A stretch of 64,000 nucleotides of DNA from Chytridium lagenaria (taxonomy: Eukaryota; Chytridiomycota; Chytridiomycetes; Chytridiales; Chytridiaceae): NCBI GenBank assembly GCA_025449115.1, contig JAHLKC010000166.1, positions 1-64,000 on the forward strand, read 5' to 3'. The translations under genes and the position numbers were made by a program. How positions within the stretch are numbered: the first letter of the stretch is position 1; the number at the start of each line of letters is the position of its first letter. Under the pieces are notes generated by a model. That model worked only from the letters and a program-made list of their open reading frames with translations, was not told the DNA's origin and ran no database searches. Positions 42,880 to 64,000 of this stretch are shown in pieces.

Positions 42880-43107
42880 CATTACGCTTTAATCGCTCGT
42901 AAACCGAAAAATGGCCCAGATACCCTACTTTTTATTCACACACTTTCGCCATCATTCATGCCAGGTATCTTCATAAACACACTCCAAATATGTATCCACA
43001 AGAAGAAAAAAGAAATAAACGGATGCATCAGAAAAAAAACATAATATGGGAATAGGGCATGAAAAAAAAAAAGAATGGTGTCAAGTTATCTGATGCTAAG
43101 AGGGGGT
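42880..43107. other. Convergent spacer
   Basis: Short 3' region shared by NCS1 and the Hal4-like kinase, with A runs at 43030-43075. Nothing else seen. Confidence 0.4.
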
Positions 43108-45742
43108 TTAATGTTTATCCGTTGGTGTCCGGATATGCTTGTGGTGGACTTCATCGGGTGTTTTGCCAAGACAAACCTCGATGGACTTGAACCATTCGTT
43201 TTCAAAAAGTTGGGACATGGTGATGCGTTTTGTAGGATTGGGTTCAAGGATGCGGTACTACAAAAACACGGGTTAGAAATGTATGAGCTCCACAAGACGC
43301 TTACCATTGCAGCACGAGATCCAGGAGGGAGTCGGTCCAGAGGCCAGTAAGCGCCGTGATGCTCAACATAGTGTTTGAATCTTGCATCGCTTATTGTTGC
43401 CGCCTTCCATGGAATACTGTTGTAAAGCATGACGTAGCTATATAAAATTGCAGGTTAAGTAATGCTACTAAGAATAGGGAACGATGAAAATATTATATGA
43501 AAACTAACTAGATAATTCCCATAGCCCAGACATCAACCAACTCAGAGTCATACTCTTTGTTGACATATTCCTAAAAAAAATTAGGCCTGGTTATGACATA
43601 TCCCAAAAAATGACCATCAAATTGGAGAAAGCTTACCTCGGGGGCAATATAAGGGCCTGACCCACAAACTCCATGACCCTTTGTACAATTTTTTCCAAAA
43701 GGCGTTCTAAACACCTCAGAGACACCAAAATCTGTAATCTTGATGGTTCGGCCGGTAACGTCCAAAAGAAGATTTTCAGGCTTAAGATCGCGATGAGCAA
43801 CACCCATGCTGTGAAGATACTGAACACCTAAAACCAGTTGCTTGAAATAGCTGCAGAGATGACAATGTAAGAATAACATAATTTCCTTTTCTGCGAGAAA
43901 AATGGATAGAAAAAGTGAGTAATTTACCAATTAATCTCATCCGTCTCGGTTAATGTGCCACTGTGTATTCTTGTAAAGAGGTCTCCGCCCGCGCAATACT
44001 CCATGACGACACACCATTTCTTTTTCTACAATACGCAAACAAACCACGTCAGCCATGATTTACAATTTTCAAGGTAACAACGCAAAGGCAAGATGTATAA
44101 AACTCTCACCTCATCCTGAATCAAATCAACCGTCTTGACCACATTAGGATGATCCAGTGTCGAACTAATACAAAACTCGGCGACAAGCTTCTTAACATAC
44201 TCCTTCTGCGTCTCATCCTTTCTCCGTTTCCGAAACTCTTTAATCGCATACTTTTATCCGAATTCAGCGGGCAACAAAGCCTCACCACCGCATAAGCTCC
44301 CTTGCCCAAAACTTCCTCTCGTTTGCCATACTTTTCTGCTAATGAGGTTTCCGAGGCAGAGCGAGGTAACTGAGACGTAGCCGAAGATATCGCAGGGACG
44401 GTTAGACCAACGGGAAGGACGGTAGGAGAATCAAGATGATGGACCGACAGCGTGGGGAGAGGAGGTTTCATAAAGTTTTCGGAATTTGAGCTATGATCTG
44501 ATGTTGATCCGTTTACTGAAGGAGGCACAGCTGTGGATGACTTGCGCGACGGTGACGCTGAAACGGAGGGTGATGCTGCAGTAGGTGAGACAGTCTGTAG
44601 AGGCTTTTTAGAATCAACAGTGGTTTTCGCCGAGGCAGTAGAATGAGTTGACGCGTGAGAGTCTTTTCGTGATGTCATGATGTTCTTAAACAGCTTATTG
44701 GCAACGGGATGCGCTTGGTGTTCGGCATCCGAATCGCTCTCGGAATCAACACTGCTGGCCGAGATATTCCCATCGGATCCAGCAGGACTATTTCCACGAG
44801 AATTTGAAGCAGAGGACGATGACTTTCTTGATATTGTGCTGTTGAGCACCTTGTTAAAGATACTCGTTCCTTGCTCTTTCCATTTCCATCACGACGAAAT
44901 ATTCCTCCACCAAAAGACTCAGATTCAGACTCTGATGCACTGTCCGCATCCGTTGCTTTCGACTTTTTGCCTCCAGACATGGACATCAACCTCGGCCCGC
45001 CGGATCGTTCATTTCCTTGCCCATCAAGAGGCTCAGACGACTTTTTATTTCTCGATAACGATTTCGCGGATCTCGGGAAGGTCATCACCAAGCCATGATG
45101 GTTTCCGTTGCCATTCTGCCCATGCCCCTCCATGTCACTGGCGATATCTGAAGCATATTCATCCTCGGAATCCATCTCAGACTCGCTCCCACTGTGATAA
45201 GATCTTCTCGATCTTCCCAAAACACCTGATCCCTCATGGTCGTGTGGATGAAAGATGCGGTAGAGAATACCGTGCTTCTTGCCGGCCGCGCCTGCACCGC
45301 CATCCGAAGAAGCACCACCCCCACCTCCACTCGAGTAACCACTTGACGAGCCTCCACCATTCCCACCCGTCGGAGGCTGGAGATGTTGCTGCGCAGTGCT
45401 TGCCAGATTGCTTTTACTCGACCTCAATGATTTTGGACTTGAAATGGATCCATTCGATCCGTTTAATGATGAAGTGCTACCGTTGATGTGACCAGCGTTG
45501 TCGTGCGCCTTTCCAGATCCACTTGAGACTGAATGCCTGTCGGATGAGAATGAGCTGAACATGGATGACATGGACGGGCCGAATCCTGAGCCACTTCCGT
45601 GCGCCTTCTTTTCCATCTTTGGTGAGCCCCCCTTTGAGGAGGACGCTGTGGATGGTCGCCTCGACACGGAGCCACCCGACTTTCTCGTCAGAGAGTTAGC
45701 CTCGAGACCAGGAGTCCAGATATCAGTTGTGAAGGTCTGCAT
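43108..45742 (-). CDS. Ser/Thr kinase, Hal4/Sat4-Npr1 family
   Basis: An N-terminal region of more than 500 residues is Ser/Gly-rich with acidic tracts. The kinase domain runs from [20 protein letters not shown] (about 44340). It includes [93 protein letters not shown] and EWFKSIE, ending at 43108. The GVSE after DFG and the GxCGSxPYIAPE segment are typical of fungal Hal4/Hal5/Npr1/Hrk1 kinases, which regulate plasma-membrane transporters. Six or more short introns. Two frame breaks: T4 at 44252-44255 (plus) should be T5 to give DKKYAIK, and another single base near 44866-44876 in the Ser-rich part. Confidence 0.9.
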
Positions 45743-46351
45743 CTTTCTTTAATGTATGGATATGGGATGTGAGTGAAGGGATGATTGAAAGGGTGATGGA
45801 ACAATGAGAAAGAGAGAGAAAGAATATCTCTTTGCAATGCAATGTAATGATACTGAGCTGATAGTAAGCTACCAGGGCAGATGAGGGGTGATTAAATCAC
45901 TCAGTCACTACACACACACACTATGAATAATAATGCACGGCCGTGTGAGATGCACGCAGCACAACCACCACTTTTTTAATAATTAAATAATTAATTAATA
46001 ATTAAACAGATTCAGAGTGTTGATTGGTTGGTTGGTGGGTGTAAAAAGAAGGAAAGGATTTTTTTTCTTCAAAAAGGTCTCAGTTTTGTCTCGGATCACA
46101 ATTCACACATTCAATCTATATATTATTATTTATTTATTATGACAAACCTTGTTGTCACTTTATACTGTAAAAAGAACAATTAAGGTTGAACTATTTATCA
46201 GAAGAGAGGAAGGTTGCAGGAATTGGAATAATGGATGGATGGATGGCTGGTAGGTATACAGGATGAGTATTTAGTATATAAATGTTTTAGTGTTTGTGTA
46301 ATGTGTGCTGCTGTTATTGTGTGATAAATATTACATTGCTAAAGAGTTTGT
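45743..46351. other. Divergent/3' intergenic region, A/T-rich
   Basis: Upstream of the Hal4-like kinase. Holds AATTAATTAATAATT-type tracts (45978-46005), CACACACAC at 45910 and GGATGGATGGATGG near 46232. No gene recognised. Confidence 0.45.
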
Positions 46352-48655: not shown

Positions 48656-51292
48656 ATGGCGCAGAATGCTGGAGGACATGATCTTCTCAGCATATTAGCT
48701 GACGTTGCCGAGGAAGAGCATGACAACAATGCAGCCGGACTTTCTGGAATCAGGCCTCCATCAGCACTCTTACCAACATTAGTTTTACCAAACACCACAA
48801 ACATACCCGCCATCAATGGAGGAACCATCCCAAATCTCCAAAACCCTTCTCATTTGATTTCTCGAGCATCATTGACCAACCTCCCGACCCAATCCATTCA
48901 CAAGCGCACTTCCACCTTATCCCAAGCCTCCAACACAAACATGGATTTCACCTGGCTAGACCAACAAATCCCTCCAGCACCTCCTGCACAACCTCCCATC
49001 GTCCAACCCCTCCTGCACCATTCAATAAATCCCTTTCTCTTCCACCCCAATTCCTCGCAACCCCAACGCCATCGTTCTCGGGAAACGTTCGTCCCGCACC
49101 CGGAATACAACCTATACCGTCAAGACTGAAGAGACGGCGTTTATACCCATTCCCGCGCCAAATCTACAACCGCGTCCGGTGCTGCCGTTGACGAATATGT
49201 CGCCACAGCCGTCCCGAAGGCTGGTTTGGCGACACCGGCGCAGGAACAGTTGAAGCAGTTGATGAATAAGATTCCGAGTGATAAACATTCGGTGTTGTTT
49301 GGATTATTCGCACAGTTGCAGGTAATGATGCGTTTTTTTTTTTCTTTACTTGACTCGCTGAGTTAACCTTGATTTATCTTTGACTTTTCTGTTGTAATGA
49401 CAAGAGCAAAGCAGTGACTATAGACGGTTTTATATCGAGGGTTAGATCTTTGACCGAACAAACGGCCGCTTCCCCACTTCAATCTTCTCCAAGACCTACC
49501 TTACCATTACAACCCCGCCCCCCAATTTCGTCCCTTTCATCCACCTCCATCACATCCGACGATTCTGGCGTTGTAACCAAGATTGAGAGTCCCTCGCTTC
49601 CTCATGCATCATTGAAACGGCCCGCTGAAGGAATAGGATCACCGTAAGTTGTCCTCCCGTGCATTTTGTTTTACGTGGTCGACCTCCCACCCAACCTTAA
49701 TGCGTTATAAAAGCCCGACCCAAAACGGTCAAAGGTGGAGCCTATGATGACGAGGAGAATGTCGGCGCAGCTTGCTGGTCCACCGTTGTCTATGTCTAGT
49801 CCTGTGCCGGTGCCTGGGAATGAACCATCTGGACAGGGAGCCCCGCTGAGACTTCCAATCGCGCCGGCTCCCAGTACTATGCAGGCAAAAGGAAAAGGTG
49901 AGAATTTGTATGTCATGTGTTGGATTAATGTGTTTCATATATTAGCGCCTGCAGAAACGGACGTGGATAAATTAGATGTGGCTAGTATGATGGATGTAAC
50001 GAATTATGGTGGTGTTGATTTGAGGGTACGTTTTAAAAAAAGATGTTTTTTGTTTGTTTTTTTTAACGGTGATTGTTGACTTGTCCGTTAAAAGGAGGAA
50101 GAAGAGAGTTTTGGTATGATAAATACGGCCAATCTCCCACCATCAAATCCCCTTGGTGTCGACCGTTCAAAACTCCAAGATTTTCTCAACCTTACTCGAT
50201 TAAAACGCATTGTTGAAACAAAAGGTGATCCTCATAATCCTCGCCATGACTAACTTGAAAACCCCTAGGTCGAAAACACGGCATTCGCACCATTGACGAA
50301 GATACCCTCATTTACCTTGCTCTCGCTGCAAGAGAACGCGCAACCCACCTCCTCGAAAAAATGGTCACCGCCTCCAAACACCGTGTTGGGATTCTTCTCG
50401 ACCAACTCCTCGACCCCACCACCTCCCCTGCGCCAACCACCTTTAACATTTCTGTCTCCAACGACGTCCGTCGGATGATCCAAATGACTGAATTCATGGA
50501 ACGCGAAGAAGATAATCGAGAACGTGTCCGTCTACATCCCGACGGGTCGGGTCGTAGTGCTTTAGAAACGGCACGAGCTGCCGCTTTGGCCGCACAGGCT
50601 GCTGGGACTGCGCACCCTGACGCTGCCATCATGACACCGTTGATGATGATGCCTGCTACGACGAGTGGGTTTGAGACGAGTGGGTTTGAAGGGGCCGAGA
50701 GCTTGCAGGCGGCTGCTGCGACGGGGTTGGGTGGGGTGAGAGGGATGGAGACTGTTGTTCAGGCGGATGTGGCGGCTGCTGTTGCGGCGAGTGTAGCGGC
50801 TGGGGATGTAGTTAAACCGAGTAAGAAGAAGAAGGCGAAGAAGGGGGCGGTGGATTTGACGACGGAGGCGATTAAAGCGAGACAGGTGAATACGACGGCG
50901 TTGTTGGCGGCGGGAGGTGCGAAGGCTATTAAGAGTTGGATGATTCCGGGGGGTGGAGCTGTTGGAGCTGTTGTGCCTGGGAAGAAGAAGAAGAAGGGAG
51001 GGGTGGAGGGGATGGGGAGGTGAAGGCTGCGAAAAGTGGGGGTGCGGGTGTTGGAGTGGGACCTTCTGGACCGGTGGATCCGAAAGTGTTGGAGGAGGAG
51101 GCGCAGTTGGCTAAACTTGCAAAGGTTGGGGTTTATAAAGACGATACGGGACGGGAGGTGAGGGTGTTGAGACCTATGACGGTCAGGGAGATGACGAGGG
51201 TGACGTTGAGGGATGCGTTGTTTAGCTTGGAGAGCGAGCAGCAGATGTCGTCGAGCCCGTTGCTTTACAAGTGGTTTGGCAAAATCAATTGA
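48656..51292 (+). CDS. TAF4: TFIID subunit TAF4
   Basis: Scaffold subunit of TFIID, histone-fold partner of TAF12. The start MAQNAGGHDLLSILADVAEE precedes Pro/Ser-rich sequence. AQEQLKQLMNKIPSDKHSVL resembles the TAFH region. The conserved C-terminal domain begins at GMINTANLPPSNPLGVDRSK (about 50110), followed by KHGIRTIDEDTLIYLALAAR and ERATHLLEKMVTASKHRVG (histone fold). It ends with RPMTVREMTRVTLRDALFSL and SPLLYKWFGKI, matching the TAF4 end. Introns occur at about 49323, 49645, 49897, 50023 and 50225. Frame shifts are needed in the Pro-rich part (48990-49160) and in G runs at about 50996-51020 (the KKKKKGG to GEVKAAK join); sequence error is likely. Confidence 0.88.
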
Positions 51293-51738: not shown

Positions 51739-53678
51739 CTATGAAATATTGGTAGTCGAACGCTTCTTTGATGGTGCTATTGGCGGTTTTACGATATCAA
51801 TCTGCTCCATGGTCCAGCCTGCTGCAAGGTACTGTTCTAACGTGAAGGCTTTAGTGTATTTAGGGATCACGACGGGTTGTGAGGTTGCGGATGTAGTGGA
51901 AACGACGGAAACGGCGGCGGAAGCGGCACCCGTGGCGACGACAGTGCTGTCAGGAACGGAGCTACGATAATGATGTAGGTCAATAAGACAGTATGATGGT
52001 TTGTATCAAAATAAGAATTGGGACTTACACAAAGGTTTGAACGGGCGATGGTGGTGATGTTGCAAACGGTCCCATCACATCACGTTCTAATGTAGTTATG
52101 ACAGGAGCCCTTGGAGACATTGTCGACGCTGTGCTTGCCGATGGCAACGACGACATTGTACCAGCAGCCCCGAAAGCTGTCAATTTAACACCTCCAGCAC
52201 TTCCAGCAGCATAAGTTGGGTTATACCCTTCACCCTCTCCCCATTTCGCATAGCCCCCGCCCTCCTCCTTTTTCTGCCTTCTCTTTTTCATTGCATAGAA
52301 CACACCGAACAGAATGGCGGCAACACTAACAATAGCTGCGATAGAGAGACCGATGATGCCGCCTTTTGTTGTGATACCTTCACCCAGTGTAGGGCCGGAG
52401 CTGCCGGATGGTGGGGTATCAGTTGGAGAAACGCCGAGAGCGGATTCAGTGGAGACACCGTCTGTCGTTGTAAGGTTACGGGTACCGACTGCTGTGGAAG
52501 GGGCGATTGTGATACGACGGATGGTGGTGACGACTGCACCCGTGGAATCGGTGATGGTGACTTGAGTGTCGATAGTTGTGGCCGTGACGACGTCAGTGGT
52601 GGCGATAGGGGGATTGTTAGGCTGTTGAGATGGGTCTGAGGGTGACTGGTTTCCTGAAGGAGAGGGAGTTCCGGGTGCGACTGGCGAATTTGCAGGTGGA
52701 ACTGGCGAGTTTGCGGGTGGAGGGTTTGACGGGGGAGGGTTTGAGGGGGGAGGGTTTGAGGGGGAGGGTTGGAAGGGGGAGGAGGTGAGTTTGGAGATGG
52801 TTGAGGAGGGACACAACAACTGGAGGTTGTTGTTGGACAGTTCCAGCCATGAGACTGATCCTCCCTCCTGTGTTTGTATCTACCCCATACATGTTACAAT
52901 TCACCCTCCCTGTCGTCGTACTCTGCACTGTGATGAATCTGCAGTTATTCGTGGTTTGGCATCGATTTATGCAGGCTGCTTTCGTGGGTGCTTCACTCTC
53001 TTTATTGCATTCGTTAGTAACGTAATTAAAGGAAGAAGCGGTGCTTACGGGTTCCGACGATAATGTTAGACCTAAGATGGCCAGATATCTCAACAGACGG
53101 TGCCGACATGTGTATTGTTAAAAAGTTGGCTTCTGTTGTTATCCGCTTGCTATTGATTATGTTAACGCAGGTACGTGTTGATTAGACTATAGTTTACTTA
53201 CACAGTACACCTTCCTAAAAAAAAAAGTGGGGGAGGCGGGGGTTAGATACTGTAATGCAGTAACAAGTCTAACAAAGTACATACTATTGCCACTGCTATA
53301 CGAAAAACTGTGGGGGGCAGAGCGAAAGCAAAGATAGGTCAGTATGGGGCCGCACCAATTAAGTAAAGTGTTCTCACATAAAGCATCCTGGAGTCCGAGT
53401 ACAGACAGTTGAGCACTCACACACCGATCCAACATTTTGCTGAACTTGAAAGTCTGTTTGATGATGCAAGGAATGAGTTGATATGAATATTAGACGTTGA
53501 GTTGGTTTTGATGATGCCATTGAAACGCACCGTTGCCAACAATGTCATAGTCCATGGTTACGATCCTGTTCGTCCCGCAAGTCTGCAGTTGAGCCTGTAC
53601 TGCATTTGCAGAGAGCATGAGGACCATGATTGCAGGTAGCATCATTCTTTTGTAGACGGATGATGCCGAAGAGTCCAT
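51739..53678 (-). CDS. PAN-like receptor family, copy A
   Basis: Seven exons: 53678-53531, 53453-53378, micro-exons 53307-53285 (23 nt) and 53214-53202 (13 nt), 53149-53049, 52999-52029, 51961-51739. Signal peptide (MMLPAIMVLMLSANAVQA), then module 1 (CECSTVCTRTPGCFIFSY, ending RRCTVKR). A linker VEISGHLRSNIIVG leads to module 2 (KAACINRCQTTNNCRFITV, CNMYG). A long Pro/Ser/Asn-rich stalk precedes the membrane span IIGLSIAAIVSVAAILFGVF, basic KKRRQKK, and a cytosolic tail with YAKWGE and TLERDVMGPF. The last exon holds FTLEQYLAAGWTMEQIDIV. The Pro-rich stalk (about 52780-52815) changes frame, so one base is probably wrong or the copy is broken. Likely a plasma-membrane sensor or adhesin; ligand unknown. 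Confidence 0.82.
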
Positions 53679-54390
53679 GGATGACGACGACAACGACAAC
53701 GACAGCGACGACGATGGCATCTCTCTCAGCCGAAGGTAGTGGTGTCTGGTGCCCAAACTGGAGTGCAACGTGATACTTTCAAACTTGGACATCAATTTTT
53801 ATTTCGACAATTATTGGTGAAACGTAAGGGGAGGGCGTTAAGATTTAATCATTTTAAAAAGATTCCATTCCATGGTGGGCGGGGTGGTGGTGGTTCGGAA
53901 ATACTTTCCGATTTTATTATTTTTTACTTTTTATTTTTTAAGTGCATTTATCATTACACACGCGCATCATTAGGATAGGACGAGTAGAAGGTGTGAGTTA
54001 TCCACCTCAGTGGGAGTAAACTGATGGCTTATGGAATCGTGTGCCTGGTGCGATGGTAGACCCGAATCAGGCGTAGTCTTGGGGAGGTACTCTGCCCAGT
54101 AGCTAGGAATTAAAGCACCAGAAAAGTGATAACACTGTATACTCGCTTTTGTATTAAAACAAGCAATTCAGCTTTCAGGCTGAAGAGGAGAAATCGATCT
54201 AAGTTTAAATCTAAATGAATGGAAAAAGAACCGAGAAGGAAAAGGGAGTAGCAAAAACGCATTAAGCCTTTTGCATACATATACAATGATAAAGTTCTTA
54301 AACGACTGGGATTTGAGGTGATGTCTAAAAAGGCGGATCGGATATAAGATTTTCGAGAAAACACAAGCGAAAAGAGGTAAGAAAGGCAGC
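53679..54390. other. Spacer between receptor copies A and B
   Basis: A/T-rich, with a T-rich stretch at 53915-53945. Minus-strand frames at 54110-54437 have no family features. No gene seen. Confidence 0.4.
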
Positions 54391-56165
54391 TCATGTAGAC
54401 TGCACTGGTTCCTGCATAGACCGACGGCTGTCGACACGTGCTAATGTATCCAGGGATGAGTTTTCCGTCGCATCATCGTCTGAAATGGGTGGCTTCACAA
54501 TATTAATCTGCTCCATAGTCCACCCTGCCGCAAGGTACTGTTTAAGCGTAAAGGCTTTTGTGTAGTTGGGAATAACGACGCGTTTTGGTGATGCAACGAC
54601 GGCGCTGTCAGGTATGGAGCTACAAGAATAAGCGTGGTCAACACGTGTTAAACCAAGAATGAAAAGCTGACTTACTTGGAGGCTTGAACAGGTACGGGTG
54701 GAGAAGTTACAAACGGTCCTTTAACGCCACGCTCTAATGTGCTTATGTTCATAGGAGCCCTCGGAGATATTGTTGACTCCGTGCTTGCCGATGTCAGCGA
54801 AATCATCCCACCAGGAGCCTTTATAGTATTCAAATAGACATCGCCAGCCTTTCCAGCAGTGTAGGATTGGTTATCCCCAATGTCATCCCCCCATTTTTTG
54901 TAGCTCCCGCCCTCATCTTGTTTCTGTTTCCTTTTTCTCATCGCGTAGAACACCCCGAAGACTAAAGCAACAACTATCACGATGGCCGCAATAGCGAGAC
55001 CGATGACACCGCCTTTGGAAAAAGTCCCGTCGCTGGTAGCGGGATTGGAGTTGCCGGACGTAGCGGACTCGGTGGGAGTTATGTCGAAAGCGGGGTCGGT
55101 GGAGATGCGGTCCGTTGTGGAGATGGAAGAAATGAGGTCAACGGGAAGGTGCAATAGTATCAAGACGGGTGGTGGTAAAGATGGAGCCTGTAGAATCGGT
55201 CACGGTGACTCCTGCATCGACGGCAGAGGTTGTGGATGCGGCAGTTGGTGAATTATCGGGTGGGCTTGAGTTTGCAGAAGGAGAGGGAGCTGGGGAAATT
55301 GCGGGTGGCGGATTTGAAGGAAGAGAAGAAGGGCTTGGAGATGGTTGAGGGGGTGGAATTGGGGGTTGCGGAACGGTTCCGGCCATTATATTGATAAAGC
55401 CGCCTGTGGTAGTTCCTCCATACATGTCACAGTTCACCCTCCCGGATCTCAAGGTCTGAACGTTGATAAAGTCGCAGGTCCGCGTATTTTGGCACCGAGA
55501 AATGCAAGCTCCTTTCGAATTGGCTTCATTCTCTGTAGAGACACCGATTTGAATAAGTAAAAGTAACAGATATCCCGTGAAATATTCAGTGCTTACTTCC
55601 AACCGCCCAGTCAGACCTGAGATGACCAGGGATCTCAATAGACGTATCTGACATGAAGATAGTCACAAAATTGGCTTCTTGATCTACCCGCTTGCTGCAT
55701 TGGATGTCAATTTTGGAATATTGATAAAGAGCGATGAGACTCACATATAACACATTCCTATGAAGTCATGACGGTTAGAATATACCATATAAAAATAAAA
55801 CTACAGAAATCGCTCACCTAACGAGCTCATGTATGTAAAACTGCATAAAACAGACAGGAAGATTATCAACACAGATCGTCAATTAATCAATATTCTCACA
55901 TGGAACATCCCCGAGACTTGCAGAAATCTGTACATGCGCAAAGGGATCCAGTGAGTCTCGTTTCCAAGTCTGCGAATGTTAAAGTCAGATTCGGTTGAAA
56001 ATGACGTTGGCACGCACCATTATTCATAACGTCAAAGTCCATAGTTATGATCCGATTCAATCCACATGTTTGCGACTGAGCCCGTACAGCACTTGCAGCG
56101 AGCATCATGGCGACGAGTGACAAGAGCATCCCCATGACGATGGGTGATGCCGATAGAGACGCCAT
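54391..56165 (-). CDS. PAN-like receptor family, copy B
   Basis: Exons 56165-56018, 55969-55900, 55840-55818 (23 nt), 55757-55745 (13 nt), 55694-55597, 55532-54676, 54619-54391. Signal peptide VMGMLLSLVAMMLAASAVRA, module 1 (CACTDFCKSRGCSIFTYMSS, ending GMCYIKR), linker IEIPGHLRSDWAVG, module 2 (GACISRCQNTRTCDF, CDMYG), a shorter Pro/Ser stalk, span VIGLAIAAIVIVVALVFGVF, RKRKQKQ, YKKWGDD, STLERGVKGPF, and the last exon with FTLKQYLAAGWTMEQINIV. Exon 1 is 148 nt, as in copy A. The exon total leaves one base over; the break lies at 55138-55163 between TTRLDTIAP and the pre-membrane segment. Otherwise intact. Confidence 0.82.
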
Positions 56166-56896
56166 CAGCTTCAACGAGGGTCGGAAAACGTGGTGTTCTT
56201 TTTTCTCTAAGTGTACCACGTTGAACGGCCTCTAATTTGTATCTCGGCGTCAAAGCCAAAAATGTGGAAACTAAAATTAAAATAGCCGATCCCGTCAACG
56301 GATTATAACGTAGAAAAAAAAGGTGTAAAACAGTATTAACTTGAATGAACTAAGGGGCCCAGTATTTATTAGAACCATGGTATTTACGAAGGTTATGAAA
56401 AACATCCCATTTTTGCTAAAATCGCATTGTCTCGTCTCTTTCTCATATCTCCCTTTCTACATCAATGTAGCTACAGGTTTTCCCTTTTGACGCGAGAGAT
56501 TGCCACGGACGGATGATGACAACCTGCTCAATGGTTCCGGTTTACCTACTACCATGTCCGAGAAGGCTCGCGAAGACTGCAACACAGTGGGCGCAGTTAA
56601 GGGTAAATTAGACCACTGCTGGTCATGGTACTACGTCTTTAAATATTTAGCTTAAACTTGAGCAAGTAGGTATTTCCACCAATAACTAAAGCATCCATCG
56701 GCTTTAAGGTCATGACGGAAGCGTCTGCATACCTAGCATTCAAATAAAAGTTCAATGATAAGGGGAAAAAGAAGTTTGCTAATATTTTGAAGCATTGACC
56801 GAAAAATTAAAACGTGATAGAGGTCTATATAAAAAACTGAAAAAAGAAAAGAGTATATGGCTGGTAAAAAGAAGGCATTCAAAATGTGAAAGGAGT
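56166..56896. other. Spacer between receptor copies B and C
   Basis: No coding frame with family features; unremarkable sequence. Confidence 0.4.
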
Positions 56897-58819
56897 CTAA
56901 TTCGACTCCAAAGGCTCATGCATCGTCCGATGAGTATTGCCACGAGCCAGTGTATCCACAGACGGCTTGGCCATCGCCGGAGCAACTTTCTTCGATGGTG
57001 CTATTGGTGGCTTGACGGTTTCAATCTGTTCCATCGTCCACCCTGATTTGAGGTACTGTTCGACGGTGTAGGCTTTGGTGTACTTGCGGGTAGGCTCTGC
57101 GACGGAGGATGCTGCGCCTGCAGCGACAACGGTGCTTTCAGGGATAGGGCTAGAATAGTCAGCAAGTCAGTATTCATATTCCTTTAACTGATATGAGAAG
57201 CTGAGGAAAACTTACGCAAAACTCGATTCGGGCGATAAGGCAGCTGGCGCTGCAACTGGGCGTTCCAAAGTCGAAACCATGACCGGAGCCGGAGATATGA
57301 CCGCCGCAGTGTTCGCCGATGGTAACGACGCCGTTTTACCAGCACCCGCCATGTTGCTTAACTTGACATTTTCATACCCCATCCTACCCCCAGCACCAGC
57401 ACCTCCGTTAGTAGGGTTATGCTCACCGTGATCTCCCCATTTATGGTACTGCCCTCCCTCTTTCCGCTCCTTCCTCCTCTTCACAGCGAAAAACACACCA
57501 AAGATCACCGCAGCAACAACAATGATAGCTCCAATCGCCAGGCCGATAACGCCTCCTTTAGATAAACCAGCCTCACTAGTAGTAGAGCCGGAGTTGCCTG
57601 ATTTAGGTGTGTCCGTGGGGGAAATACCGAGGGCAGAGTCTGTGGAGATGCCGCTTGCGGTGACGATGGAAGCGTTGTGGGAGGCTACAGGAGCCATGAG
57701 AGTGACATGTCGGGTGGTGGTGACAACCGCACCAGTGGAATCAGTGATGGTGAGTACATCGATTGTTGTAGCTGCGACGGCGTCAGTGGCGTCAGTGGTG
57801 GAAAGTGGGGAGCTGTCGGTTTGTTGAGATGAGTCCGAGGGTGGTTGATTGGCAGATGGGGACGAGGCTGCAGGTGGTGACGAGTTCCCAGGTGGAGGGT
57901 TTGAAGGAGGGTTTGAAGGGGAAGTACTTGGAGATGGTGGAGGTGGAGGAGGGATTGCAACGTCAGGCTGTTGAACGGTTCCAGCCATAATACTGACCCT
58001 TCCTAGTGTGCCTATGTTTCCTGCGTACATATAACAACCTACGCGAGGACTCTGCTCCTGAATGGTGACGAATTTGCAAGTCCTCGAGCCTTGGCAGCGC
58101 GAGATACACTCTCCCTTCGAGTTGGCAAGGTTATCTTTGAATATTTAGAAAAAAAAAGGCAATGGCTGTCATGAAATAATAGGCCGGTATCGGGCACTCA
58201 CTTCCAACGCTGATGTCGGACCTAAGATTGCCGGGTATCTCAATATTCGGAGCCGACATGAAGATTGTTACGTAGTTTGGTTCTGGCGTGATCCGCTTGC
58301 TGTATATTGTGTTATGCTTACAGTCGCTTCTACTGAAATCTCTACTCACATGAAGCAGCTTCCTGAAAGAATAACGAGGGTTAGAACACACGTACACACT
58401 CACGCACACAGAGCAATAAATAGAGAACAAGAGCCAAAAGTACTCACTGGTAGACCTCACGTATGCAAAGCTGAAGTTAAACGGAAAAGAAGAATGTTTA
58501 GAAGAGTCTCGCATACAGCTTATCGACTTACACAAAACAACCGCTTACAGACTCGCAAAAGCTTGCGCACTCGCAACGAGAATCTACAACTCTGTAATCT
58601 CTGTCTGTGATGGAGATGAGTTTCAGAATGAAGTAAGATGTCGAGCCAATGTCATTCTAACAACGTACCGTTATTCACGATATCAAAGTCCATCGAGATG
58701 ATTTCGTTCCTCCCACAAGTTGAAGCCTCTTGAGCCCGCACGGTAGCAACAGCCACCATCGAGATGATGAGTACCAGCAGCATGCTTCTGTAGACGGATG
58801 ATGCTGACGCAGTGGCCAT
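56897..58819 (-). CDS. PAN-like receptor family, copy C (intact reference copy)
   Basis: Exons 58819-58669, 58604-58532, 58470-58448 (23 nt), 58362-58350 (13 nt), 58299-58202, 58134-57216, 57149-56897 total 1530 nt, i.e. 509 residues with no frame break. Residues 1-29 are a signal peptide ending VRAQEA. Module 1 is about 33-85 (CECASFCESVSGCFVFAY, ending RSCFIKR). Linker IEIPGNLRSDISVG, then module 2 about 118-160 (GECISRCQGSRTCKFV, CYMYAG). The stalk of about 160 residues is Pro-rich and then Ser/Thr-rich (probable O-glycosylation). Span VIGLAIGAIIVVAAVIFGVF, then KRRKERK, YHKWGD and STLERPVAA. The last exon holds YTVEQYLKSGWTMEQIETVK and ends in an Asp/Arg/Thr-rich segment shared with copy B (DTLAR). 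The second Met of the longer frame was chosen because the signal peptide follows it. Confidence 0.9.
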
Positions 58820-59204
58820 GACGACGAACGAACCAACGAACGAGCGTTTTTGTGTTATCGCCGGTTTGGTGTGCAACGTTTGTCTTTCATTTGATTTTTA
58901 GTATTTGGTCCTGAAAGGGGTCACATACATATTAAGCCATCGTGTTTCATTTTATGTATTTACATGAAACATTTTTATCAACAAAAAACAGATTTTATCT
59001 GCGAAAACGCTGTTTTTCGTAAAGTAAATTCATCTGTTACTTGTTTGTGGTAAAGAAAATTCATTTGTTACTTGTTCATCTGTTACTTGTTTATGGTAAA
59101 CTACTAAAAATCTATAAAATAATAAGGACTTCAAAGAGGAACACCCCCCAAAGATAAAGCTATGAAAGAAATCGCGTCCTTCGCAATACACCCCACCATC
59201 ACGC
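58820..59204. other. Spacer between receptor copies C and D
   Basis: Contains a local repeat of GTTACTTGTTT-type units at 59036-59095 (three partial copies). No gene seen. Confidence 0.45.
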
Positions 59205-61236
59205 TTAATGCGATTGCATTGGCTCCACTTCAGACTTGACCGTGGAAGTCCTTTCTAAACCATTCTGCTCCACCGCCAATTCCCCTGTCGCCAGCATGGC
59301 TACCCCCTTTGCCGAGGGCAGCATAGGTGGTTTCACGATGTTGAGCTGCTCCACCGTCCACCCTGCAGCGAGGTATTGCTCCAATGTAAAAGGTTTCGTG
59401 TAGGTCGGTAGACCGGGCAGGAGTGGGGCATTGGTGGAAGTGGGGGGTTTGGTTGGTGTTGTTGCCGTTGTAGCAGCGGCTGATGCTGCTGCAATAGGGA
59501 CTGCAGGGGAAGCGGTTGAAGGTGCATCCATAACACTAAAAACGGCAGAAAGGCTCGTGCTATTTGATATGATATTATTTTCTGGAAAAGAGTACAGCAT
59601 GAACTAATCCAAGAAGAACTCACCGTCTCTGCGTCATTTCCCTTTCAATTGTGATATTAGTTGACATATTCCCGGTTTGAGACATCTTCCTCATGCTAAT
59701 TTCCTCTTCCCTGTTCTTCGATCCAGCAGCCGCTGCGCCTGCAGCCAAACCAAAACCCACTCCTGCCGCAGAGCCCGTCAAATTAGCACCTCCTCCCCCC
59801 GCCCCCCTATCCAAAGTCACCAGCTCATCCCAATCCCTCTCCTTCTTCTGCGCTAGTGCATTCCTCCGCAAACCATATACGATCCCTGCAATGATAACCG
59901 CCGCACCAATAACAGCTGCAGCGATTCCGATTCCGAGAACCACGCTGATGCCATTACCAGATCCATCCCCTGAGCTCGGTCCAGAGGTGGCTGTAACAGC
60001 TCCAACACCATCTAGATCAGTAATCAAGGGCCCGACGCTTCCTGAGAAAGTGCGGAGCGGACCTTCCGCCGTAGAACTGGGGACACGCGTCATGCCTGCA
60101 GGACGGGATGTACGTGTAATGTTAAAGACACTGACGGTCCCAGAGACAGTAATGGCGGTTTCAGTGATAATCGTGATATCTGAAACTGTTTCTGCGGGCG
60201 GTGGTGCTTCGGATGAAATGGGAGACGAAGGATTCGAAGGATTCGAAGGATCCGAGGGTTGGTTAGGTGTGCTCGGAGAAGGCGATGGACCTGGGACGGG
60301 AGGGACGGGGACAGGATTTACTGGGGGCTGTGGGGAAATGGGCGGAGCATTGGGAACGTCCTTAAAGCCGATGACGCTGGTCCTTGCTTCATTGCCTTCA
60401 TCCATAGAACAATAAACGTCTCCGCGTTCAGGCGTCATAACCACGTATTGGCACCTTGGTTCTGAGATGCATTGGTCGATGCACCGTTGCTTAGACATTA
60501 GCCCTAAGAACACGTTGCGTTAGCTTGAAATGAGTAAAAGGGGAAACTTACTTATTTGGCCAAACGGATTAATGCTTAAACTCCCTCTAATTCGGAGGTT
60601 CGTGTTAAACTTGAAGACTGTCTCTTGGCCACGTTGTCGAAGAGCACTCTTCCTAGAATGTTGTTTATTTATACGAACTGATGGTTTATCCACAAAAGAG
60701 AAACAACCAAGATGATAGAGACCGATGTCATAATAAGATAACAACTTACAAAAAGCATTTTCCTGTAGAACGTTATGTGCAATTTATGGTTTAGTATCAT
60801 AGACGTTAATAAATTAATGTACGAAAACAAAAAAAAGCCCGAAAGCGAAGACTTAAGTAGGTTCAGTACTAACCAGCATTAAACGTTTCTTGACTGTTGT
60901 CTAGACTCACAATTCCATACGCAAACCTACACAGAATGTTTAAAATTCATGTCTGCAACGGGGGGAAAATTCTCACAAATCGCAATCGCTATGGTCATCG
61001 CACCGCTTCGCACACTCGCATACGTCGTCAGCGTGAGGACCGTGCGCTGACTCTGGGATGTCTAGTTCAAAACATGGTCAGGTCTGACAGGTCATGATTA
61101 TAATGATACCATAAGCATTGATGCCAAAACCCCTGGTGTCGATTCGCACTGAGGGACAGTTCCGCGGTTCTGCTGCAACCAAGCCGGCAATGAGAAGCCA
61201 TGTCAACGTGAAGGTTATATGGATGAGGTGGAGCAT
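59205..61236 (-). CDS. PAN-like receptor family, copy D (intact, divergent)
   Basis: Exons 61236-61110, 61061-60977, 60926-60907 (20 nt), 60762-60750 (13 nt), 60652-60552, 60503-59624, 59535-59205 total 1557 nt, 518 residues. Signal peptide (ITFTLTWLLIAGLVAA), module 1 (VCECAKRCDDHSDCDLFAYG, ending KCFLK), module 2 (RCIDQCISEPRCQYVVM, YCSMDEG). Stalk, then span VLGIGIAAAVIGAAVIIAGI, a tail with ERDWDELVTLDRG, and a last exon with FTLEQYLAAGWTVEQLNIV. The third exon is 20 nt instead of 23 and needs a weak GTCTAG donor; the GTGAGT four bases earlier would break frame and lose the module-1 Cys. Most diverged of the complete copies. Confidence 0.85.
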
Positions 61237-61819
61237 CCTGACGACAACAGACTCCTTAATCTGAGACCACAGTGGTGATGGACAGAATAGAGCAGTGGGG
61301 CAAGATGGGAAGACGAAAGATGGGAAAACGGAATCCTTGCTGAACACTAATGGATTTACCTTCCTGTACGTGATAATCCAGGGTTTGCGCAACTCCATCC
61401 CTGTTGACGTTTTAGGGAGAATTGTTACACACCCAGAAAGACACAAATGGGACAGCGAAATATTTCAAACGTGAATGCCCAAGACCCCTCTTTAAAGGGA
61501 GGGGGGGGATTGGGTGTCGAGTTTAGATGCGCCTTCCAACCGTGGTCAACACAAAAATAAAAGTTGAATGTTTCCTAAGGCCATATCTTTTTCGTAGTGT
61601 CAATATGCATAAACTGGGATCTGAAGGGATATGGGGTGCGTACACCATCATCATCTAAAAAATACAAGAGGCACGACTATCTCAATGAAACGAAAAGAAG
61701 ATTAACAAAAGCAAATGTATCGACAACAACATCGAAGCGGCAAAACGGATCCTCAAAATTATTAGCCCCAACATTATAAAAAAACTTGACTAAAAAAAAC
61801 TAGCACAACAGTCTGTCGT
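61237..61819. other. Spacer between receptor copies D and E
   Basis: Includes a G10 run at 61499-61508. No coding frame with family features. Confidence 0.4.
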
Positions 61820-63598
61820 CTAATTTGGCTGAGGGATACCAGAAGGGATAATAGGCGGTTGTAAGGCGTTAATCTGCTCCATGGTCCAGCCAGATTGGAG
61901 ATATTGCTCGACGGTAAAGGCTTGAGGTTGCTGCGGCTGAGCATAGAATCCGCCATAAGGGTTGGCGTAGGGGTTAGCGTAAGCTTGGGAGTAGCCCATA
62001 GTTCCATTTTGGCCAGGAGTGTAGTAGCCATAGGAGCTATCGTAGCTAAACATTGCAGGGAAAAAATAGAAGAAAGACGCGAGAAAGCGAGAAGCGAAAT
62101 GTAAAGAAATGTGTTAGTACTGAAAAAGAAGTGTAGGATCCAAATGAAATGATTTAGTTATAGAATGCTGGTTCGTACCCAGCTGTAGACACAGTCGAAG
62201 GCGGAACAGTAGATGCAACCTGTTGCTTTAACGCGCCGTTCGTCTCATCATAGAATCATACACAACAGGAGTAGGCGGTGCCATAGCAGCCGCACTTTCC
62301 CTTCCTGCAACGCCATTACTCCCGCAGCTCCATAACCCGAAGCAGCGCCAACACCCGCAGATGAGCTAAAAAATAGGACCTTCAGCACGTGGCGTGGTGT
62401 TTTCTGTCCTCTTCTTGGCAGAAACTCGAACGGCGAATGCAATAGCTGCACCAATGAGAAGAACGCCAACGACTGCGCCAGCAGCTCCAAGACCAATGAT
62501 AAGACCCGTGTTTTCTTTAGCTTCTTGAAAAGGACTAGAGGTTTCGGTGGAAGTAGTTGTCGAGGTAGCTGAGGTAGTAGTGCTGAGGGTGTAGAGAGCG
62601 AGCTGGTTGTGGAAGTGGACGTCGTTGTCGTAATGGAAGTTGCGGAGACTGTAGTTGTGGGAGGAAGAGTAGTCGCACTGGTAGATGTAGAGGTTGAAGA
62701 AGTTTCTGTTGACGTGACCACATTGGGGTTACGACCTCTGATACCCACACGGCGATCAGGGTTAGCTGAACCAGAGTAAAGTGAACAGACACCACCGACA
62801 GCAGAGTAGATCACGTATCGGCAAGCAGAGTCGGCCTGGCACTGGCGGATGCATACGGTCTCACTGAGGACGGATTGGGCTAAGAATAAAACCGTTACTT
62901 ATAAAATCGAGAGAAAGAGTTGCCAAAGAGCGAATGGCACTTACAAAGCAGGCCATTGAGAGCTGTACCAATAGCCCCAGTAAACCCGTAAACTGGCAGG
63001 GTTGGCCTTGAAAATGGTAAGAGCATCCACGGTCGTGTTGGGCTGCTTCCTATAGAAACCAAAATGTTTAATAAAAAACGGGCATAACAACCTTTAAACT
63101 TACAAGTAACAGTCGGCTGTTGAAGGCAAGGTGACGGTGAAAATAATTAGAAAAATGCTGGGAGAACGTCATTTTTCATAATTGACTTACTGGTAGCAGT
63201 GTTAAAGGCAAACCTATACAATAATGTAGTTAGTCTTTTGTCACTGAATTAGCATTCTTACACGTTGCATAGATTGTTCGATTCGCATTGTCTCGCACAG
63301 TCACAGAACCCTCCAGGGGCTCGGGGAGGAGGAAGCTCGATATCTGATAATGAAAGCGTTCAGAATGCATTTATAATTTTAAAAAAAGCGCTGTATGGAG
63401 ATTGAACGAAAACTCGATCGACTTAAACCAAACAGCACACCACTAACAAACACCAAAAGATTACACACCAAACCCCATTATATCGAATGGATCCGAATCA
63501 AACACCGTCATGAACTGGGTATTGCAGGTATCTTGAGCGTCAACGCTGCCTGCAATGGCGACGAAGAGGACCGCCGCTGTTGCGACCCATGAGGCCAT
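61820..63598 (-). CDS. PAN-like receptor family, copy E (subtype with QPP tail)
   Basis: Exons 63598-63469, 63343-63262, 63213-63191 (23 nt), 63116-63104 (13 nt), 63049-62945, 62879-62179, 62045-61820. Signal peptide (MASWVATAAVLFVAIAGSVD), module 1 (FCDCARQCESNNLCNVFAFN, ending DCYLKQ), module 2 (SETVCIRQCQADSACRYVIY, CSLYSGS), a Ser/Thr-rich stalk (STSTSATTLPPTTT), span LIIGLGAAGAVVGVLLIGAA, RVSAKKR. The last exon is Tyr/Gln/Pro-rich (YDSSYGYYTPG, AYANPYANPYGG) and carries FTVEQYLQSGWTMEQINAL, then QPPIIPS. Frame changes are needed in exon 5 (near 62990-63010) and in the tail part of exon 6 (62270-62380), so this copy is either misread or decaying. Confidence 0.8.
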
Positions 63599-63921
63599 CC
63601 TCAGAAACGTTGGCATCACGAACACCGGGCCTTGTGTGACGACAGCTGTAGATTTATAATATTTTTTCTGAAAGCCAAAGCTGACAATCGCAGATATATG
63701 TAGGAAACTCTATTGCGCACTGTAAACGAAAGAAAACACAACAACTCACGCGCCTAAACATTTCTAAAGGCGATCTTATGAGGGGAAAGGGCAACATTAA
63801 CAAACAAGCGAAACGTGTATCAAGGAACCGAAAAAGAACAGGGCGAGTTAGACAAAACCCATAAATATAGAAATAGCAGCAACAAGGGCCTGCCTCGATG
63901 CCTCATCGACTTATCAAGCAT
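63599..63921. other. Spacer between receptor copies E and F
   Basis: Short A/T-rich spacer; no gene seen. Confidence 0.4.
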
Positions 63922-64000
63922 TTACTTGGCAATAGGAGGTTGGAAGGCATTGATCTGCTCCATAGTCCATCCTGATGCCATGTACTGCTCAACGGTAAAT
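63922..64000 (-). CDS. PAN-like receptor family, copy F (C-terminal end only)
   Basis: The last 79 nt hold, on the minus strand, FTVEQYMASGWTMEQINAF, then QPPIAK and a stop at 63922. This is the C-terminal motif of the family, closest to copy E (INA[LF]QPPI). The rest lies beyond the window, so the array continues to the right. Confidence 0.85.
   Translation of the reverse strand, partial: FTVEQYMASGWTMEQINAFQPPIAK

Follow-up and report, generated by a model that had tools for sequence, protein, structure and literature searches.

The cell-wall sensors Wsc1-3 of Saccharomyces cerevisiae are described as combining a cysteine-rich domain, a glycosylated Ser/Thr-rich stalk, one membrane span and a cytosolic tail, and the cysteine-rich domain of Wsc1 is assigned a PAN/apple fold in the same account (PMC9024836). 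Clustering of Wsc1 is reported to depend on this domain (PMC2885430). PAN modules are also described for CBEL of Phytophthora parasitica, together with cell wall location and substrate binding (PMC3338822, PMC3681718). A preliminary description of the tandem array presented here knew of no described fungal family with its layout. As to layout this was wrong, for the description of yeast Wsc1-3 gives them the same plan (PMC9024836).

Gene models of the array

Eight paralogous genes (A–H) follow one another head-to-tail on the minus strand of a Chytridium lagenaria contig (JAHLKC010000166.1); all features located below are on that strand. Copies A–E lie inside the window, i.e. the whole stretch of 64,000 nucleotides that was analysed (contig positions 1 to 64,000), F spans the window edge and G–H lie beyond it. 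The distances from the ATG of one copy to the stop of the next are 670, 731, 385, 583, 305, 368 and 617 bases, and these intervals are therefore too small for another sizeable gene. An array of at least six tandem minus-strand paralogs without any gene between them had been proposed before; its tandem order and the lack of an interposed gene held, and the number rises from six to the eight modelled here.

All eight models have seven exons and six introns. They were placed by hand with the paralogs in view, copy C alone being backed by an outside record (NCBI BC829DRAFT_407829, Chytridium lagenaria; 509 aa, 100% identity). Exon 3 measures 23 nt in six of the eight models and exon 4 measures 13 nt in seven, and introns 1–4 have phases 1, 2, 1, 2 in every model, which we count as beyond chance.

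Reading was open throughout in C (56897..58819; 509 aa), D (59205..61236; 529 aa), F (contig 63922-65622; 444 aa, start at contig base 65622, with the 3' end at 63922..64000 in the window) and G (contig 65991-67765; 452 aa, start at contig base 67765). The other four copies break frame. In copy A (51739..53720; seven exons) the break falls within the Pro-rich stretch of exon 6, from where other frames are open up to the tail, and in copy B (54391..56165; seven exons) it falls in the stalk part of the same exon. Copy E (61820..63616; seven exons) breaks in exon 5, as judged by homology to F, and again within exon 6. Copy H (contig 68383-70030; start at contig base 70030) is broken as well, including its tail region. 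Copies A–E had initially been regarded as complete, but in this assembly only C and D are open within the window.

PAN/apple ectodomain and membrane topology

A profile search, suggested in the preliminary description as a check, placed PF00024 (PAN_1) above the Pfam cut-off in five of six copies (A, B, C, F and G), with two stretches in each. The best single-copy E-value was 3.2e-12, which we count as beyond chance. Scores were 33.7 bits for the ectodomain of A, 23.8 bits for B and 38.4 bits for C (two stretches); copy D, at 18.6 bits, stayed under the cut-off of 21.4 bits. This protein-level scan took in A–D, F and G; in a profile search of the genome, exon 6 of E (28.3 bits) and exon 6 of G passed the cut-off. 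NCBIfam gave nothing near its cut-off in the two proteins scanned. Three other places in the genome match PAN_4, and by eye these adjoin glycosyltransferase-like open frames, not receptor-like genes.

Ten cysteines, which may pair in disulfides, are invariant in all six aligned copies. They comprise one N-terminal Cys and two modules. As measured in A–D, F and G, module 1 is spaced C-x-C-x3-C-x4/5-C-x10-21-C, and module 2 follows C-x3-C-x5-C-x10-14-C. The two paired modules had been recognized before; the spacings given for them did not hold when re-measured in these six copies, and the N-terminal Cys is added here. In copy C the first module is spread across the micro-exons 2-4 (73, 23 and 13 nt; 58350..58604), with the best Pfam stretch at residues 56-94, and the second occupies the first part of exon 6 (57974..58134).

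Searching the PDB with copy C alone yielded nothing significant (top PAN row: MIC4, E 0.25), so that a family profile was needed for a match to apple domains. The profile of the family's ectodomains matched the apple domains of factor XI (E 8.5e-11), with its best stretch in module 1, as well as plasma kallikrein, Toxoplasma MIC4 and Sarcocystis SML-2. AlphaFold2 modelled module 2 of copy C (residues 121-160) as a helix and two strands with block pLDDT of 89, 89, 88 and 80, and comparison of this structure gave a weak VIA-align match whose top three rows were the galactose-complexed lectin SML-2. The original characterization as PAN/apple-like finds support in Pfam, in the profile match to solved apple domains and, weakly, in the structure match of module 2.

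Hydropathy revealed only two hydrophobic peaks in each of the four open copies (C, D, F and G), an N-terminal stretch and one span; the signal peptide is called from hydropathy only. In the same four copies the stalk consists of 39-50% Pro, Ser and Thr, and the span is followed by basic residues and then by a cytosolic-side tail, with no Cys after the span. The cytosolic part comprises 165-197 residues beyond the 19-residue span window. By hydropathy, the span together with the basic residues following it maps to 57470..57559 in copy C and to 59863-59958 in copy D; the corresponding membrane strings of A (52277-52366), B (54927-55016) and E (62408-62512) were located as strings. GxxxG occurs in all eight membrane strings. 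The layout originally proposed (signal peptide, Cys modules, Pro/Ser/Thr stalk, span, basic stop and tail) is therefore present in all four open copies, and the term receptor-like finds support in this topology and in the conserved cytosolic tail.

A conserved tail below divergent ectodomains

The most conserved feature of the array, not singled out previously, is the C-terminal motif YTxEQYLxxGWTMEQI. A pattern scan of the whole genome (42 Mb) found the motif at seven sites, all within the array: in A (51800..51819), B (54506-54525), C (57024-57043), D (59344-59363), E (61872-61891), F (63953-63972) and G (contig 66037-66056). A homology search returned the same seven tail sites and nowhere else at E up to 10. 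When predicted alone, the tail formed a confident helix-turn-helix (block pLDDT of 93 and 89 for the two helices). The full model of copy C repeated these helices (pLDDT 77 and 86) from an alignment without the tail of any other copy.

Tail identity was 48-84% over 25 codons (21 pairs of A–G), and ectodomain identity, over the 15 pairs among A–D, F and G, was 23-57%. For the ectodomain pairs among A, B and C, dN/dS values were 0.36/1.29, 0.41/1.73 and 0.32/2.27; dN is thus well below dS, although these are pairwise averages from one genome that single selected sites may escape. Synonymous sites were saturated in 11 of the 12 remaining ectodomain pairs, indicating that the copies are old. The preliminary idea of a polymorphic family finds no support in these one-genome data.

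Full-length copy C, searched against 5.8 billion proteins, found only itself among the matches listed (candidate pool 8000, probably owing to stalk words). Masked for signal peptide, stalk and span, it again found itself only (2887 candidates, E up to 10) and likewise missed its paralogs. The tail of G gave no match in the 5.8 billion proteins, an uninformative result given that copy C, which is in the database and has eight 5-residue words in common with it, was also missed. Since the searches overlooked known paralogs or copy C, these negatives say nothing on absence from other chytrids. Titles and abstracts in the literature yielded no PAN receptors in chytrids among the matches listed; the match for chytrid and PAN domain concerned Saprolegnia.

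Proposed function and comparison with known systems

Recognition of surfaces by chytrid zoospores before settling is poorly known. The array proteins share the plan of yeast cell-wall sensors and hence look like sensors. We hypothesize, giving this about an even chance, that the array encodes Wsc-like single-pass PAN sensors which differ in their ligands and share a single cytosolic partner. Situated in the plasma membrane, they would operate like the yeast Wsc sensors. The PAN/apple pair, held on a Pro/Ser/Thr-rich and probably glycosylated stalk, would touch a glycan or glycoprotein belonging to the wall, to the substrate or to a second cell, and the GxxxG-bearing spans may permit clustering. 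On the cytosolic side, the C-terminal helix-turn-helix would recruit one partner common to all copies, and differing ectodomains joined to one tail could read different ligands into one signalling output. A bolder version, which we regard as unlikely, is a private chytrid module whose PAN-pair ectodomains, old and divergent, are all read via the one tail, allowing the zoospore to distinguish substrates or algal hosts; the tail would then be a new protein-binding mini-domain, unique in this genome.

The proteins might instead be adhesins, with the PAN pair attaching the fungus, as zoospore, cyst or thallus, to cellulose, to chitin or to the wall of an alga and the tail anchoring to the cytoskeleton or directing sorting, without any signal. 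PAN modules of CBEL and of the fungal Ss-Sl2 have been linked to adhesion and the wall in one account (PMC3338822), and the lectin SML-2 heads the structure comparison of module 2. However, the long cytosolic part (165-197 residues), with a 25-codon C-terminal stretch that is better conserved than the ectodomain and predicted to be folded, is not obviously needed by a pure anchor, and we consider adhesion possible but doubtful. Variable recognition of self, mate or host strain, with copies that diversify under selection and vary between strains, would suit a tandem array of ectodomains only 23-57% identical above a conserved tail. It appears quite improbable to us: dN is well below dS in the A/B/C pairs, even if averages leave room for single selected sites, the saturated pairs point to old copies, and both the spacing of the Cys and the layout of the exons vary little.

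Frame breaks in four of eight copies, several in some, could also mean that the array is decaying and that half of its copies (A, B, E and H) are pseudogenes. Yet the window also contains a protein kinase that is likewise split between two frames, with a one-base overlap of the two parts that excludes an intron. Because this kinase also breaks frame, assembly errors seem the likelier cause of the breaks. Moreover, the tails of A, B and E are conserved past the breaks, with pN of 0.10-0.27 against pS of 0.52-1.13 in the 15 tail pairs involving any of them, numbers that are blind to recent decay. Decay of the array is thus improbable in our view.

Returning to the sensor hypothesis, Mid2-type sensors resemble the array proteins in having a stalk and one membrane span. 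To our knowledge they lack PAN modules, and as a candidate family (PF04478) they were rejected, with copy F reaching 18.6 bits against a cut-off of 23.2 bits and the other five of six copies giving no match. SML-2 (Sarcocystis muris) and MIC4 (Toxoplasma) are apicomplexan micronemal proteins that both carry PAN/apple modules. Both matched the array ectodomain by profile, SML-2 also providing the best structure rows; we know of no stalk-span-tail layout in either.

Ss-Sl2 of Sclerotinia sclerotiorum, described as a protein of the fungal wall, shares the signal peptide and two PAN modules with the array (PMC3338822). It is a secreted, wall-bound protein of 352 aa, and 'transmembrane' occurs nowhere in the main text of its description (PMC3338822). 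An Ss-Sl2-type protein, secreted and span-less, therefore fits the two modules but not the one membrane span of all four open copies. In CBEL the PAN modules are described in association with CBM1, which was not matched in any of the six array copies at E up to 1.

Among the closest known systems, Wsc1-3 as described share with all four open copies a Cys-rich ectodomain, a stalk (here Pro/Ser/Thr-rich), one span and a tail, and the PAN/apple fold of Wsc1 has a likely counterpart in the ectodomain of the array. Unlike Wsc proteins, which have one PF01822 domain with eight Cys, the array proteins have two PF00024 modules and ten Cys. PF01822 was absent from the matches of all six copies at E up to 1 and from the families matching the six ectodomains at E up to 10, where HMMER filters remove most matches above 0.1. 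The locus offers candidate sensors as a defined set that includes an intact reference copy, and its short, apparently folded tail could be used as bait for a putative shared partner. The Wsc plan of PAN-type Cys-rich domain, stalk, span and tail thus occurs in a chytrid with PF00024, beside true WSC matches.

Extent and exon layout of the array

The contig carrying the window is 78,856 bases long, in a genome of 41.9 Mb and 356 contigs, and its numbering equals that of the window up to 64000. It carries eight genes, A to H, arranged head to tail and all on the minus strand: A at 53720-51739, B at 56165-54391, C at 58819-56897, D at 61236-59205, E at 63616-61820, F at 65622-63922 (crossing the window edge) and, in contig coordinates beyond the window, G at 67765-65991 and H at 70030-68383. 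Neighbouring genes are 305 to 731 bases apart. The tandem minus-strand array of at least six paralogs noted in the preliminary description was thus confirmed, and it extends past the sixth gene to eight. Past A it adjoins a TAF4 gene (window 50259-51292, plus strand), of which two TAF4-matching pieces sit in different frames, with a short intron possible between them. Past H, a plus-strand gene seems by eye to begin.

We built the gene models manually and with reference to the paralogs. Copy C is the one with an outside record, and its model is identical at every residue to the NCBI protein BC829DRAFT_407829 of Chytridium lagenaria, in agreement with the splice pattern. Every modelled copy comprises seven exons. 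Introns 1 to 4 have phases 1, 2, 1 and 2 in all eight, and intron 5 is in phase 1 in seven, the exception being E, where exon 5 breaks frame. Exons 2 to 4 encode the first PAN module, split by micro-exons (exon 3 of 23 nt in six of the eight copies, exon 4 of 13 nt in seven); the second module lies within exon 6, and exon 7 encodes the conserved tail. This shared exon number, phasing and module placement is explained by copying of one ancestor in place. A, B and C form a group with a support of 96 in a tree built from the ectodomain and tail together, the remaining splits having 40 to 77. The micro-exons at exons 3 and 4, present in all eight copies, may be missed by automated gene prediction.

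Frame breaks and divergence

Four copies (C, D, F and G) have an uninterrupted reading frame; the frame is broken in A, B, E and H. Copies A to E had been called complete, which in this assembly holds for C and D and fails for A, B and E. The window also contains a protein kinase gene (43100-45750, minus strand) whose catalytic domain falls into two pieces lying in different reading frames. Its first piece, ending at 44253, has a glycine-rich loop recognized by eye and matched no Pfam family, and its second (44029-44253) matches Pkinase profile positions 26-76 at 25.1 bits, below the cut-off of 31.7. The pieces overlap by one base, so that no intron fits, and the split gene points to indel errors in the contig. 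Downstream of their frame breaks, copies A, B and E have tails with protein-level conservation and synonymous sites near or at saturation, although recent decay would leave no trace in these numbers. Taken together, the broken kinase gene and the conserved tails favour assembly errors over decay as the cause of the frame breaks in the four copies.

Among A, B and C, dN/dS was about 0.14 to 0.28 (ectodomain pairs, pairwise averages), and dS was inestimable for 11 of the other 12 pairs owing to synonymous saturation. These values give no support to a recent polymorphic expansion of the family, which had tentatively been called polymorphic. Protein database searches for relatives in other species, using copy C, masked copy C and the tail of G, yielded copy C only; two of them missed sequences known or expected in the database, so these searches do not establish that the array is unique to the species. 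Among the open-literature matches listed, we found no account of PAN proteins of this type in chytrids. PAN_4 matches at other loci (L005, L006 and L007, on contigs C287, C20 and C8) adjoin glycosyltransferase-like open frames, and L005 and L006 look by eye like near-identical copies on two contigs.

Protein layout and comparison with Wsc sensors

The four open copies encode 444 to 529 residues, each with exactly two hydrophobic peaks, one at the N-terminus and one starting at residue 258-315. The ectodomain proper contains ten cysteines in each, with two extra in G near the signal peptide. The stalk comprises 109-161 residues (39-50% Pro, Ser and Thr), and the 19-residue span window is followed by 165-197 cysteine-free residues. 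Hydropathy peaks and composition therefore bear out, in all four open copies, the layout of stalk, single span and tail proposed from first inspection. GxxxG is present in all eight membrane strings, a motif common enough to be weak evidence. We also spotted by eye a cytosolic motif near the membrane, F-[SN]-[SA]-S-[AV]-GVGA-[AS]-S, common to E (window 62338-62373), F (contig 64405-64440) and H (contig 68675-68710), all on the minus strand.

Membership of the Wsc family by sequence was rejected, as a Pfam search of six copies gave no PF01822 match. Elsewhere in the genome there are 15 WSC matches (11 over cut-off), so the PAN copies do not replace the WSC family here. WSC matches cluster on contigs C29 (about 40.7-49.1 kb) and C64 (about 24.2-26.3 kb).

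Yeast Wsc1 is described in PMC9024836 as a mechanosensor in wall integrity signalling, built from a Cys-rich domain that adopts the PAN/apple fold, a glycosylated stalk rich in Ser and Thr, a single membrane span and a tail in the cytosol; according to PMC2885430, its clustering depends on the Cys-rich domain. The main rival reading of the array proteins is that they are adhesins. The conserved tail suggests that the copies have a common output, and the divergent ectodomains suggest differing inputs. Most likely, the array proteins would act as Wsc-like sensors, with the PAN pair outside and an effector site common to the copies inside, since they have the plan of Wsc1, two PF00024 modules replacing its one PF01822 domain.
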